A stretch of DNA of 36,666 nucleotides from an uncultured Spirochaetales bacterium (GTDB taxonomy: Bacteria; Spirochaetota; Spirochaetia; DTKZ01). Location of the stretch: positions 1-36,666 of the forward strand of contig CALKLC010000042.1 in assembly GCA_937991975.1 (NCBI GenBank), given 5' to 3'. Positions 4,772-31,046 of this stretch are shown piece by piece. The position numbers and the translations under genes are program-made. A model generated the notes under the pieces. It was not told the origin of the DNA. It saw only the letters and a program-made list of their open reading frames with translations, and ran no database searches. Numbering within the stretch: position 1 is the first letter of the stretch; each line of letters begins with the position of its first letter.

Positions 4772-5413
4772 TCAAAGTTGGATTTCCGATGAAGCACCCG
4801 ATCTCTCCCGCAAGGCTTGTGCGTTCACCAGAAGAAGAGTATTCCCTTCTCTTTTTAAGATCCCTTCCGATATCAGGCGTTGAACGATTCCTTCAACTTC
4901 CAGTAAAGGCGTTTCGAGGGAAAGGGAAATTTCCTCTGTAGTTTTGTCAAAGAGGAGAGAATCCCTGGAAACCTCTTCGAAGGCATACACAAGATGGAGA
5001 GCGATAAGAGCGGGGGCATTCTTTCGTTTCAATTGCTGGATCTGCATGTTGGCATGCTGAAGGCGGCGACAGAGCTTATCGATGATGTTCATCGCAATCT
5101 TCGAGTTCTTTTCGATCATGCTCCGGAAACCCTGCCGGTCGAAGGCTAAGAGGTGAGTGTCAGTGACTGTCTGGGCTGTGGCGGTCCGGCGGATCCGGTT
5201 TACGATGGCCATTTCGCCGAAGAAGTCCCCCTTTCCCAGGATAGCCAGCACATGGTCTTTGTTGCCAATAGACTTGCTGATCTTGACCTTCCCCTCCTGG
5301 ATGATAAACATCTCGTTCCCCTCATCTCCCTCACGAAAGATTACCGTACCTGCAGGAATCACATGTCCGTATTTTTCGAACAGAAGGTTGTCACTCATAC
5401 TTTCTATACCCAT
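4772..5413 (-). CDS. Crp/Fnr-like cyclic-nucleotide-binding transcriptional regulator
   Basis: cNMP-binding fold with phosphate-binding-cassette-like FFGEMAIVNRIRRTATAQT; C-terminal winged-helix-like segment. Start may be the second Met at 5398. Confidence 0.8.
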   Translation of the reverse strand: MGIESMSDNLLFEKYGHVIPAGTVIFREGDEGNEMFIIQEGKVKISKSIGNKDHVLAILGKGDFFGEMAIVNRIRRTATAQTVTDTHLLAFDRQGFRSMIEKNSKIAMNIIDKLCRRLQHANMQIQQLKRKNAPALIALHLVYAFEEVSRDSLLFDKTTEEISLSLETPLLEVEGIVQRLISEGILKREGNTLLLVNAQALRERSGASSEIQL

Positions 5414-5520
5414 TATAGAGTTCGGCCTGTTAGGTGTCCAGGGTTAGGCGCACAGCCCTGTTTAGAACACAGCATGCCAAATAATAATTTTAAACCCCTA
5501 TTAGCCTATAAGGGGCCGCC

Positions 5521-5539
5521 ACAATTTTGGCACCACTTA
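5521..5539 (+). repeat. Copy 1 of 19-nt intergenic motif ACAATTTTGGCACCACTTA
   Basis: Exact match to copies at 11395-11413 (+) and 30876-30894 (-); lies about 10 bp from the AEC transporter stop. Confidence 0.85.
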
Positions 5540-5548
5540 TTTATCATT

Positions 5549-6547
5549 TCAGATCTGCGAAGCGAGGAATAGTATCCCCGGTAACAGTACCATATAGGAC
5601 ACGGTAGTGGTGAGCCAGGTTGAGTTGGCCAGATCTACATCGAACCCGTAGATGGCAGGAGGAATAGCGGCGAGGAACGCAACGGGTGAAAAAGACACGA
5701 TCACGAGGGTTTTCAGGGGCAGACCGCCCCGGATGGACCCAAACCCGAGGAGGATTCCGATGGGTATCAGACACGCGGGTACAAAGAGGAATTTGATGAG
5801 GTGAACCAGAATGATTTCCTTCCTGTACTGACCGATAGCCCCGATTTTCAACGTCAATCCGATGGCCAGACCAAAAAGAACGGTGATGACAGGAACCAGG
5901 ATATGGGAAAGCTGGTACATGAACTGGGGTTTCGGTATCCCGGATAGCCTCAGGAGGGTTCCAATCAGCACAGCACCGAGGGGAAAGAATGCCACCTTCT
6001 TTTCCAGAAGAATCCGTGGATGGAATCGAAAGGAGGACAGGTTCGCCTTACTGATGGCATAACTGAGGGGAAACCCGAGAGTGTAGTAGAGAGGCTGTTC
6101 GAACAGGGCGTAGATCTGTATATAGGCGAATCCCTCTTCTCCATAGAGGACAAAGGCGATAAACGCAGCGAGGGCGCTGATATTGTAGAACATGCTGCTG
6201 GAAAAGAAGGATCCAGCCCGGTACGGTTCGATCCGGAACCGGCGGATACAGAGAACCGCAGCCAATCCGCCTAGAAATAAGGATCCCGCTCCCAGAAGGG
6301 AAAACAGAGCCAGCTTCCCTGAAGCTGGAGCGAAGCTCCAGAGGGAACTGATGGCTGCGAGAGGCAGGAGGGCCATCACGGCAACCTGTTTCATCCGGTC
6401 GGAAAGGACACGGGGGGAAAGGAACTGTTCGAGGGACAGGGGAATGCGTCGTTCCCGAGAAAGAACGAAAAAAGAGTAAAACCGCTGAAGCATGTACCCC
6501 AACAAGACAGATCCAAAACTGATCGCTAGAATATAAGCAACTTGCAT
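5549..6547 (-). CDS. AEC-family (auxin efflux carrier-like) permease
   Basis: Multi-TM protein. Probable start is Met69 of the listed ORF (MQVAYILAISFGSVLLGYML), because upstream residues are low-complexity and overlap the divergent TPR gene. Confidence 0.75.
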   Translation of the reverse strand: MQVAYILAISFGSVLLGYMLQRFYSFFVLSRERRIPLSLEQFLSPRVLSDRMKQVAVMALLPLAAISSLWSFAPASGKLALFSLLGAGSLFLGGLAAVLCIRRFRIEPYRAGSFFSSSMFYNISALAAFIAFVLYGEEGFAYIQIYALFEQPLYYTLGFPLSYAISKANLSSFRFHPRILLEKKVAFFPLGAVLIGTLLRLSGIPKPQFMYQLSHILVPVITVLFGLAIGLTLKIGAIGQYRKEIILVHLIKFLFVPACLIPIGILLGFGSIRGGLPLKTLVIVSFSPVAFLAAIPPAIYGFDVDLANSTWLTTTVSYMVLLPGILFLASQI

Positions 6548-6607
6548 GGATCCACTATACCAAAAAACACTTTTCCCTTGAAAGCGGTTGTGGTATGATC
6601 CCTTTCC

Positions 6608-7276
6608 ATGGTGAATCTGTTTGGATTCCTGTTCCTTCGATTCTGGGAACGGGCAGCCCTCAACAACTTTGTTCTTGGACGGTATGCGAAGGCAGAGGAG
6701 TATTTCCGAAAGATCCAATCTGTCCAACCGAACAAAATGGGGTTGGGGCACAATATCGGCCTTGTGTGCCTTGCCCAGGAACGGTATGAAGAGGCAGAAA
6801 AGGAGTTCCTGAGGGAACTGGAACGGTTCGGTGAAACCTACATTCGTCTGAAAACGTTGGGAGATCTGTATTACCTCTGGGGAAAGCGGGCTGAATGTGC
6901 CAGGTACTACCAGAATGCTCTTCCGGTATGTGAACAGGAGGCAGACCGGAAGCTCATCCAGAAGAGGATCGAGTATGCCTCAAATCCTGAATCCTTTGAA
7001 AGGGCGATGAAGAGTTACCAGGCCCTGAAGAAAGGGAATGCCTGTATGGCTGAAAAGCGTTTCGAAGAAGCCAGTGAAGAGTTCGAACGAGCGGTGCAGC
7101 TGGATCCTTTTAACTTCCAGGCATGGAACAATATAGGTGCCGTGGAGCTGAACTATCGAAAGAACCCTGCCCGTGCAGTCGAATGTTTTCTGCGGGCAGT
7201 GGAATATACCAGTTTACCTGCCATCCATAACAACCTCAAGCGGGCCCAGGCAATGCTGGGGAAGGAGAAACGGTGA
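6608..7276 (+). CDS. TPR-repeat protein
   Basis: Repeated TPR patterns (YAKAEEYFRKIQSVQPNKMGLGHNIGLVCLAQERYEEAEKEF; AEKRFEEASEEFERAVQLDPFNFQAWNNIGAVEL). Confidence 0.8.
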   Translation: MVNLFGFLFLRFWERAALNNFVLGRYAKAEEYFRKIQSVQPNKMGLGHNIGLVCLAQERYEEAEKEFLRELERFGETYIRLKTLGDLYYLWGKRAECARYYQNALPVCEQEADRKLIQKRIEYASNPESFERAMKSYQALKKGNACMAEKRFEEASEEFERAVQLDPFNFQAWNNIGAVELNYRKNPARAVECFLRAVEYTSLPAIHNNLKRAQAMLGKEKR

Positions 7277-11344: not shown

Positions 11345-11365
11345 GAGGCCCCGCTTCGGGGCCTC
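11345..11365 (+). terminator. Hairpin after the BMP binding-protein gene (terminator or 3'-stabilising stem-loop)
   Basis: GAGGCCCCG-CTT-CGGGGCCTC, perfect 9-bp stem with 3-nt loop; no strong T-tract follows. Confidence 0.6.
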
Positions 11366-11394
11366 AGGTATTTAAAAGATCTATTGCGACTGTA

Positions 11395-11413
11395 ACAATT
11401 TTGGCACCACTTA
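11395..11413 (+). repeat. Copy 2 of 19-nt intergenic motif ACAATTTTGGCACCACTTA
   Basis: Exact match to copies at 5521-5539 (+) and 30876-30894 (-). Confidence 0.85.
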
Positions 11414-11458
11414 AAGAAGTTCGAGAGAACCAGAGGCCGGGAACAGCAGAGAAGATGA

Positions 11459-28487: not shown

Positions 28488-30818
28488 ATGTACTTCCATA
28501 AACTCATCCACCCCACCAACTGCACGTATTTCGAAGCTTCCTCGATTCGCATGGATGTTACCCATCTGGGGGAAGATGTGTACCGGGTGGTATGGGAAGA
28601 TCCCCGATGGGCGGAAGAGGAAAGCCCTGCGGAGCTCACCAGGACCGGATGGAGCCGGGAAAAGCGGGGAAATGTTCTTTCTAAAGGGAACGGGTTCGAT
28701 GTGTATTGGGGAAAGGAACGGATCCTTTCCACACGGGACGGAAAAGGGTTTGGAGCTCTGGGGAAGAGCTGGGTGATAAACTTCCAGCCCGAAGAACGGT
28801 TTCGAATTTATGGTCTCGGAGAAAAGGCTTTCCCTCTGGAACGATCCGGTATCCGTACCAGGTTCTACAATACGGATGTATGGGCCGATTTTCCAGCTCC
28901 CATCCATAGGGATGGGAATCCGGATCCCCTGTACGCTTCTATTCCGTATGTGCTGGTAGATGCGGGATCTGCCTGGGTGGGGATCCTCCTCTCGACTTCC
29001 TACCCTGCCTTCGCTTCTCTTATGGCGGAAGATGCCATTGCCGATTCCCTCCATGGATCAAGTTCCCTTCCCAGATGGTTTTCCCTCGGTGCAGAAGGGG
29101 GGAAGCCTGAGCTGTACATCCTGGTTGGGGATTCCCCCAAAACAGTCACATCCCGTCTCCAGAGGCTTCAGGGGAAGGTTCCCCTTCCGCCTCTCTGGGC
29201 TCTGGGGTACCATCAGAGCCGATGGGGGTATGGGCGCTATACGGATCTGGATGAACTGGACCGGCTATTCCAGAAGCACCATATCCCCTGTGACGCTCTC
29301 TGGCTCGATATCGATTACATGGATGGATTCAGAGTCTTCACCTGGGATGAAAAGAAGTTCAGTCATCCAAAGAACCAGGTAGAGGATTTAAAGAAACGGT
29401 CCCGCAGGGTTGTGCCTATCCTGGATCCGGGGATCAAGAGGGAAGAGTCCTTCGATGTATACCAGGAAGCGATGGGAAAGAATCTCCTCTGTCTGACTCC
29501 GGAGGGAAGACCCTTTGTGGGGTTTGTATGGCCAGGGGAAACGGTATTCCCTGATTTTTCCCTTCCCGAAGCCCGGGAGTGGTGGGCCGAGCGGGTCAAG
29601 AAGTTCCTGAGTGCTGGAATAGAAGGGCTCTGGCTGGATATGAACGATCCTTCCACAGGTTCTGTGGATCCCCAAAGTATGCTGTTCCAGCGTGGGAAAA
29701 AGCCCCACGCTTTCTACCACAACGCGTACTGTCTGGGGATGCAGAAGGCTGTCTGGGAGGGCTTTCAGAAAGCCTTTCCCGGCAGGAGACCTTTCCTCAT
29801 AAGCCGTAGCGCTTTCGTGTCTTCCAGTCGTTTCGGAGGCATCTGGGGTGGAGACAACTGGTCGAACAGGCACCATCTGTCTCTCTCCATTCCCCTCTGT
29901 TTGGGACTTTCCCTCAGTGGGCAGCCTTTCTGCGGGGTGGATATCCCTGGTTTTGGGGGGGATGCGGATCCGGAACTTGCCATAGACTGGTACAAAGCCT
30001 GCTTCCTCTTCCCCCTGTTTCGGAATCACTCAGTGAAAGGGAGCAAACCCCAGGAACCCTGGCAGTTTGGAGAAAAGGCCCTTTCTGTCATCCGGGACTA
30101 CATCTGCCTTCGATACCGGCTTCTACCGTACCTGTACAATCTCTTTGCCGAGGAGGAGGAAACAGGGGATCCCATCCTTCGACCTCTATTCCTCGAATTC
30201 CCCGAGGATCGGGAAGAGGCCGCTCCTTTCCTGGATACCGAGTTCTTTGTGGGGCCGTTTCTCCTTCACGCTCCGATCCTGGAGGGGAAAGAAAGGGAAG
30301 TGTTTCTTCCTGGGAAAGGGATCCGCTTTTACGATTGGTTCAATAACCGCTGGGAAGAAGGGGGGACGCGGGTAAAGGCGAAAGCTGGGCTCTCGAGTAC
30401 ACCGATCTTTGTCCGGGAAGGGACAATTCTCCCCCTGCAGCCGGCAGAGGCCTCCTTGATGGAGAAAGATCTTTCTGCTGTAGAGTTGCACCTCTTCCTG
30501 CGGAAGGATACCTCTGTGGAAGGCCGGTACCGGTATCGTTTCGACGACGGAGAAACCTATGGGTATCGGAAAGGGATCAGAACCGAGTTTTCCATGGTTG
30601 TCACTGTGGCAGGAGATACGGTTCGGGTCCGGCTGCTGGAAAAATCCTTCCATTTTAAACCCTGCCGGATCAGTTTTGTGGTGTACGATCGGTTCGAGAA
30701 AGTCATCGTCACTGACGGAATCCGGGAAGAACACCTCTTTACTGAAAAGTACACCTTTCAGTTGCCAGGAAAGAGTCTCAGCCTGAGGCGGACCCGGGAA
30801 ACGGTTCTCAAGAATTGA
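28488..30818 (+). CDS. Glycoside hydrolase family 31 (alpha-glucosidase/xylosidase-like)
   Basis: WALGYHQSRWGYGRYTDLDEL, DALWLDIDYMDGFRVFTWD, GLWLDMNDPS, SRSAFVSSSRFGGIWGGDNWS, PFCGVDIPGFGGDAD. Confidence 0.93.
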   Translation: MYFHKLIHPTNCTYFEASSIRMDVTHLGEDVYRVVWEDPRWAEEESPAELTRTGWSREKRGNVLSKGNGFDVYWGKERILSTRDGKGFGALGKSWVINFQPEERFRIYGLGEKAFPLERSGIRTRFYNTDVWADFPAPIHRDGNPDPLYASIPYVLVDAGSAWVGILLSTSYPAFASLMAEDAIADSLHGSSSLPRWFSLGAEGGKPELYILVGDSPKTVTSRLQRLQGKVPLPPLWALGYHQSRWGYGRYTDLDELDRLFQKHHIPCDALWLDIDYMDGFRVFTWDEKKFSHPKNQVEDLKKRSRRVVPILDPGIKREESFDVYQEAMGKNLLCLTPEGRPFVGFVWPGETVFPDFSLPEAREWWAERVKKFLSAGIEGLWLDMNDPSTGSVDPQSMLFQRGKKPHAFYHNAYCLGMQKAVWEGFQKAFPGRRPFLISRSAFVSSSRFGGIWGGDNWSNRHHLSLSIPLCLGLSLSGQPFCGVDIPGFGGDADPELAIDWYKACFLFPLFRNHSVKGSKPQEPWQFGEKALSVIRDYICLRYRLLPYLYNLFAEEEETGDPILRPLFLEFPEDREEAAPFLDTEFFVGPFLLHAPILEGKEREVFLPGKGIRFYDWFNNRWEEGGTRVKAKAGLSSTPIFVREGTILPLQPAEASLMEKDLSAVELHLFLRKDTSVEGRYRYRFDDGETYGYRKGIRTEFSMVVTVAGDTVRVRLLEKSFHFKPCRISFVVYDRFEKVIVTDGIREEHLFTEKYTFQLPGKSLSLRRTRETVLKN

Positions 30819-30875
30819 AGATTCCACTGGAATTGGTGATTTTTTGAGACACCTCTGCGGGCGGGAAAAGAGATT

Positions 30876-30894
30876 TAAGTGGTGCCAAAATTGT
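30876..30894 (-). repeat. Copy 3 of 19-nt intergenic motif, inverted relative to copies 1 and 2
   Basis: TAAGTGGTGCCAAAATTGT on + strand is the exact reverse complement of ACAATTTTGGCACCACTTA. Confidence 0.85.
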
Positions 30895-31046
30895 GGTGGG
30901 GCCTCATATTCGGTTTTAAGATCCACGTTATATCTTTGTATTATATCTTGGTATTCTGTCCAAACAGAGCGCCTCTTAGCCCTTGGAAAAGTTCGGTATA
31001 TATGTTGTTGAAATCGCAATATTGTGTTGCGTAGATAACATTTTTC

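Follow-up and report, generated by a model that had tools for sequence, protein, structure and literature searches.

The 36,666-nucleotide stretch analysed here (the window; contig CALKLC010000042.1 of assembly GCA_937991975.1, from an uncultured Spirochaetales bacterium) carries, at three places between genes, an identical 19-nt sequence that is the outer end of a miniature inverted-repeat transposable element (MITE). The copies lie at 5521-5539 (+), 11395-11413 (+) and 30876-30894 (-): respectively beside the open reading frame (ORF) at 5549-6751 (-), between the gene for a Bmp/PnrA binding protein and that for an ABC ATPase, and between a GH31 gene and ptb. The ORF list and the neighbouring genes bear out the intergenic position of all three, and Pfam supports a cNMP-binding regulator (4772-5413), the binding protein, the ATPase, GH31 and PTA/PTB; only the ORF at 5549-6751, which the first-pass annotation had called an AEC transporter, had no Pfam match at E 1e-5. 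Three identical 19-mers are indeed beyond chance, as had been supposed, since shuffled versions of the window lead one to expect 0.01 copies at up to three mismatches and none of 100 shuffles reached three. The longer block noticed around copies 1 and 3 extends over 44 nt at 82% identity.

The genome to which the window belongs (G000) is a metagenome-assembled genome of 2.63 Mb in 222 contigs, 79% complete. It holds 147 copies of the motif at up to three mismatches, divided evenly between the strands, while the reversed motif used as a control gave none genome-wide at the same threshold. The repeat is thus far from confined to a few loci, and the window, with 1 copy per 12 kb against 1 per 18 kb genome-wide, is ordinary for this genome. 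Detailed analyses were made on 126 copies, those in stretches fetched around matches, with genes predicted by a codon-usage gene caller. The enrichment between genes that the first-pass annotation had proposed to look for is pronounced (118 of 126 copies intergenic against 22% expected, p about 1e-65), whereas the orientation bias looked for alongside it is absent: 24 outer ends point downstream and 22 upstream, and tandem, convergent and divergent intergenic regions are occupied at background rates. Intergenic placement without orientation bias is consistent with insertion followed by selection against copies that disrupt genes, and not with an RNA signal that has an orientation. An element ending in this motif has inserted about 100 times between the genes of this spirochaete. 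Many contigs of the assembly, among them C28, C96, C109, C118, C127, C129, C132, C169, C173, C176, C203, C208, C220 and C221, end in or near the element or an insertion sequence (IS), which indicates that the repeat fragments the assembly.

The architecture of the element emerges from 34 pairs of copies in which a minus-strand copy is followed within 200 bp by a plus-strand copy, always facing outward. Twenty-four pairs span 141-192 bp, six are overlapping 24-bp palindromes and the remainder are intermediate; at 24-192 bp between core ends, all are too short to encode a transposase. The intact element measures about 125-190 bp and is bounded by GTGGTGCCAAAATTGTGGCGG...CCGCCACAATTTTGGCACCAC, and the 192-bp example at C164:209-400 owes its length to a short internal tandem repeat, CACCTGAGCAAGGGCGTA. 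Paired 16-bp cores are on average 96% identical. The interiors align at 64%, little more than the 60% of shuffled sequence, and nonetheless yield a consensus. A search with a full-length profile recovers truncations in a graded series. In a profile over 124 copies, the core positions carry 1.6-2 bits and are followed by a tip, T-T-a-a, whose conservation falls outward. The 19-mer is the terminal inverted repeat (TIR) core ACAATTTTGGCACCAC plus the first three bases, TTA, of the tip.

Target-site duplications, which had been suggested as a check, are present and 9 bp long. The flanks of the 34 pairs show a direct repeat, with nine columns of raised identity, separated from the core by 4 bp at either end (19-25 of 34 identical per column inside, 4-12 of 34 outside). 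The nine bases are all identical in eight pairs and match at six or more positions in 17 of 34, where chance gives 2.5-5%. A 7-bp duplication with a 5-bp tip was dropped in favour of this geometry after flank comparison. The target is AT-rich and symmetric, NAWNSNWTN, and is common to the copies including the unpaired ones; in the 124-copy profile it appears as an A at position 22 (the second of the 9-bp site) and a T at position 28 (the eighth), with no signal beyond position 30. An outward promoter, with TTGGCA as -35 and a -10 past the target copy, was considered and rejected, there being no base preference at positions 30-35 of the 124 copies. The same target signature accompanies 40 contig-internal lone copies, which accordingly look like real element ends whose partners have been lost; no left target copy was found beside unpaired ends. 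Over the 34 pairs, conservation appears higher in the TIR cores than in the duplications that belong to them, a contrast that may reflect selection, gene conversion or ascertainment.

How do the three copies in the window relate to such elements? In comparison with two sister species (G001 and G002), whose flanking sequence is about 80% identical, each lies within extra DNA, of 90-95 bp for copy 1, 36-40 bp for copy 2 and about 185 bp for copy 3. All three are decayed or truncated insertions (Table 1), and little beyond the end itself matches the element profile in copy 2. For the latter, the flanks AAAAGATCT and AGAAGTTCG, at the spacing of a collapsed element, are suggestive only of a target duplication. 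Elsewhere in the genome, collapsed 24-bp palindromes of the form GTGGTGCC-8-GGCACCAC, some with mismatches, occur at C77:8366, C85:9058, C123:10949, C132:15896, C176:15162 and C200:4832, and those on C85 and C176 retain perfect 9-bp target duplications. A deletion joining the quasi-palindromic halves of the two TIRs would be one way to produce such palindromes. Copy 2 is inserted just 3' of a terminator-like hairpin (GAGGCCCCGCTTCGGGGCCTC, 11345-11365) that follows the Bmp gene and has similar counterparts in two sister species. Some 50 bp of the lineage-specific DNA at copy 3, towards GH31 (30818-30875), is unmatched by the element profile and is possibly a second, decayed insertion.

Table 1. 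Features of the three element remnants in the window
Feature	Position	Strand	Basis
Copy 1, conserved TIR core ACAATTTTGGCACCAC, whose outer end faces right	5521..5536	+	exact match and position profile
Copy 1, weakly conserved 4-bp tip TTAT	5537..5540	+	position profile; flank geometry
Copy 1, right target copy TTATCATTT (predicted), near which host homology to the sisters picks up again; left partner lost	5541..5549	+	profile, sister comparison
Copy 1, insertion of about 90 bp specific to this lineage and missing from G001 and G002; left end lost	5447..5540	+	sister comparison
Copy 1, match to the last 34 element positions	5503-5536	+	profile search
Copy 2, conserved TIR core	11395..11410	+	exact match and position profile
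Copy 2, putative collapsed 24-bp mini-element geometry, left arm decayed (CGACTGTA replacing GTGGTGCC)	11387..11410	+	inference from 24-bp palindromes and the insertion of about 40 bp
Copy 2, candidate left target copy AAAAGATCT, 6/9 identical to the right copy	11374..11382	+	read from sequence; flank geometry
Copy 2, right target copy AGAAGTTCG (predicted), with the tip TTAA before it (11411-11414)	11415..11423	+	sequence, profile, sister comparison
Copy 3, conserved TIR core, whose outer end faces left, with the tip at 30875-30878 and a predicted target copy at 30866-30874	30879..30894	-	exact match and profile
Copy 3, right-hand 59 element positions; left end lost	30879..30939	-	profile, E 8.6e-8
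Copy 3, insertion of about 185 bp specific to this lineage, lying between GH31 and PTA/PTB and missing from G001 and G002	30818..31003	.	sister comparison

The motif is absent from three genomes of the same genus and five of the same family, and 60 relatives scanned gave only four isolated matches, each with two mismatches. The first-pass annotation had named a lack of conservation in sister strains among the observations that would refute its reading; the lack is real, but it is what a recent mobile element predicts. An exact 21-mer search of the GTDB genome collection, among which G000 itself apparently was not included, returned no matches, and a literature search for the TIR sequence found no paper.

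Certain copies located at contig ends have another interior. Those on C29, C96 and C221 enter a gene beginning MADPILYPEFCPNPQC..., with the transposase N-terminus, and those on C14, C18, C175 and C109 exit from a gene ending ...CGHLSA, with the transposase C-terminus. Both ends of this IS have the same 16-bp core, with TATT just inside in most copies; in its outer flanks, all 7 cases have A at target position 2, and 6 of the 7 have T at position 8. A degenerate copy lies near C208:23131-23190; C92, considered as a complete 1.3-kb IS, was rejected because it holds host genes instead. Judged by its shared end and target signature, this IS, with its partly assembled transposase, is the likely mobiliser of the MITE.

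The transposase is one of a family whose members measure about 370-440 residues. Within the class, the family was found in 37 of 297 genomes; among GTDB genomes it occupies 77 loci, and the titles of these genomes are all spirochaetal but for one Bacteroidetes bin. Against Pfam and NCBIfam no cut-off was reached. Weak matches to IS1, ISL3 and IS1595 models involve a zinc ribbon and a helix-turn-helix only: for NF033558 (IS1, cut-off 100 bits), the best E among members is 2.4e-6, and a member with a listed score reaches 25 bits, at the N-terminus only; for NF033550 (ISL3, cut-off 180 bits), the match amounts to 33 bits (E 2.7e-8) over residues 10-112 only. A search of solved structures by sequence returned only zinc fingers with insignificant E values. 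An AlphaFold2 model of a relative from G000 (predicted local distance difference test score 74) contains an RNase H-like core, with retroviral integrases and the ISCth4 transposase as its best fold matches in the PDB, and D130, D220 and D268 (A1 numbering) are invariant. The TIRs of relatives resemble the motif (ACTGGTGCCGAATTTGTT, AGTGCCACCAAAATTGTT), and 22 relatives have the target signature at the same offset with weak duplications (identity 0.35 against a median of 0.26).

Several members of the family were observed in other settings. In G000 itself, C146:32643-32780 (locus L186:1115-2278, -) encodes an apparently intact relative of 388-394 residues, 34% identical in the N-terminal match; it is 77% identical to a relative in an uncultured Spirochaeta (L244) whose TIR, TTAGTTTATCGAACC, differs. 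The closed genome G035 carries 13 copies of two IS subfamilies on C1 (L168-L180), one of which has ends TTGAGTNATNNCAAAACGACACC; the bases within its end vary, and no target duplication is visible. In G055 (L181-L184), the IS ends are CGCCCCAAACAATGTGG, often flanked by A- and T-tracts, and insertion there is perhaps at terminator-like sites.

Given TIRs, duplications, target preference, empty sites and a co-resident IS with the same ends, all directly observed, we consider it highly probable that the 19-mer is the end of a type II MITE, presumably moved in trans by a same-ended IS, and that the copies in the window are its remnants. The suggestion that the motif might be the end of a small non-autonomous element is thereby strongly supported, by the inverted pairs, the 9-bp duplications, the symmetric target and the empty sister sites. 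We propose the following model. The DDE-type transposase of the larger co-resident IS, which shares the 16-bp ends and target preference of the MITE and differs from it in its interior, would bind the TIR core and cut about 4 bp outside it; the ends would then be joined to target strands staggered by 9 bp, and the MITE would be mobilised in trans in the same way. Later deletion would remove one end or the interior, leaving remnants such as those in the window, presumably tolerated because they lie between genes. Some observations weigh against this model. In about half of the pairs, no duplication can be recognised. The assembly leaves a gap in the middle of the IS, such that no intact transposase of the subfamily is seen. 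Just inside the core, the MITE has GGCGG and the IS TATT, and another, unassembled IS could therefore be the true mobiliser. Finally, IS copies in relatives rarely have a clear duplication (the best being 7/9, 6/9 and 6/9), and none was found for those in the closed genomes of G035 and G055.

Might the ends, once mobile, also serve the host, for example as sites for a DNA-binding protein, and be selected after insertion? In pairs with imperfect duplications (6-8 of 9), mismatches affect 22% of duplication sites against 6% of TIR-core sites (p 0.0003), a profile search with the interior only found at least one near-perfect TIR in 36 of 38 matches, lone copies are as often exact as paired ones (29 of 40 and 41 of 68), and the right core of copy 2 is intact beside a lost left arm, all of which speak for such a use. 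The copies were, however, largely found through the TIR, which hides decayed ones, and the mismatch spectrum of the lone copies (29, 9, 2, 0) also fits young neutral insertions; for these two reasons, and with no orientation or gene-context bias and sister species entirely without the motif, we regard host use as improbable. The protein-binding site that the first-pass annotation had suggested holds only insofar as the TIR is presumably bound by its transposase.

A 3'-UTR or RNA-processing element had likewise been suggested; as such, the motif would act in RNA, for example as a terminator or RNase site. Copy 2 lies directly 3' of the hairpin described above, and paired ends, if transcribed, would make long stems; yet that hairpin is kept in sister species that lack the motif, outer ends point up- and downstream equally, convergent and divergent regions are used as expected from background, no consensus fold is conserved in the interior, and an Rfam scan matched no family in the window. 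This suggestion is therefore unsupported and, in our estimation, very improbable. Even less credible is a kinship with the palindromic REP/BIME repeats (repetitive extragenic palindromes and the interspersed mosaic elements composed of them) moved by REP-associated tyrosine transposases. High copy number, intergenic location and some 24-bp palindromes (GTGGTGCCAAAATTGTGGCACCAC) are reminiscent of these, but here paired ends stand 125-190 bp from each other and have 9-bp target duplications, and the transposase family linked to them is predicted to be RNase H-like with a D-D-D triad, not of the Y1 HUH type.

Where does the mobile system stand among those known? IS1 makes 9-bp duplications, and the zinc ribbon and helix-turn-helix N-terminus of the spirochaete family gives weak matches to the IS1, ISL3 and IS1595 transposases; the matches listed cover only about the N-terminal 110 residues and lie far below cut-offs, and the spirochaete proteins are about 370-440 residues long. 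A lengthy insert precedes the third catalytic residue of prokaryotic Mutator-like transposases, which produce 8-9 bp duplications (PMC3942029). IS256 and these enzymes resemble the spirochaete system in duplication length and RNase H-like fold, with ISCth4 among the top fold matches; by contrast, the modelled spirochaete relative has no predicted long helical insert between the second aspartate and the third residue, D220 and D268 being spaced by 47 residues. We entertain, as a tentative possibility that we think less likely than its opposite, that the parent transposases make up an undescribed IS family, largely confined to Spirochaetota and marked by D-D-D, a zinc ribbon and a helix-turn-helix, that would cut at a constant distance of about 4 bp outside the core, carrying along donor bases, with the tip varying between copies, and insert at a target staggered by 9 bp.

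In prokaryotic type II MITEs, resemblance to the mobilising IS does not go beyond the TIR (PMC10969869, PMC2229807). Correia/NEMIS of Neisseria, MITEAba12 and QMITE (PMC10969869, PMC2229807, PMC6382973) are likewise shorter than 200 bp, with TIRs, duplications and many intergenic copies. The spirochaete element differs from these, Correia-type elements included, in termini and duplication: its 9-bp duplication lies 4 bp outside a 16-bp core, and its termini are not of the TA type found in most elements tabulated in PMC2229807. Unlike in known type II MITEs, its interior is near saturation, with TIRs about 96% identical and a parent outside the curated IS families. The element is a new example of a familiar kind, with a parent IS family that may be undescribed.

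Reading the repeat as a MITE accounts for a sequence found some 147 times in this genome and at many of its contig ends, and assigns it to a known class. It also brings to light a transposase family that is widespread in spirochaetes and has no curated model, for which reason its genes likely go unnamed in annotation. The contrast between TIRs and duplications offers a concrete test of whether a host retains the ends of its mobile elements.
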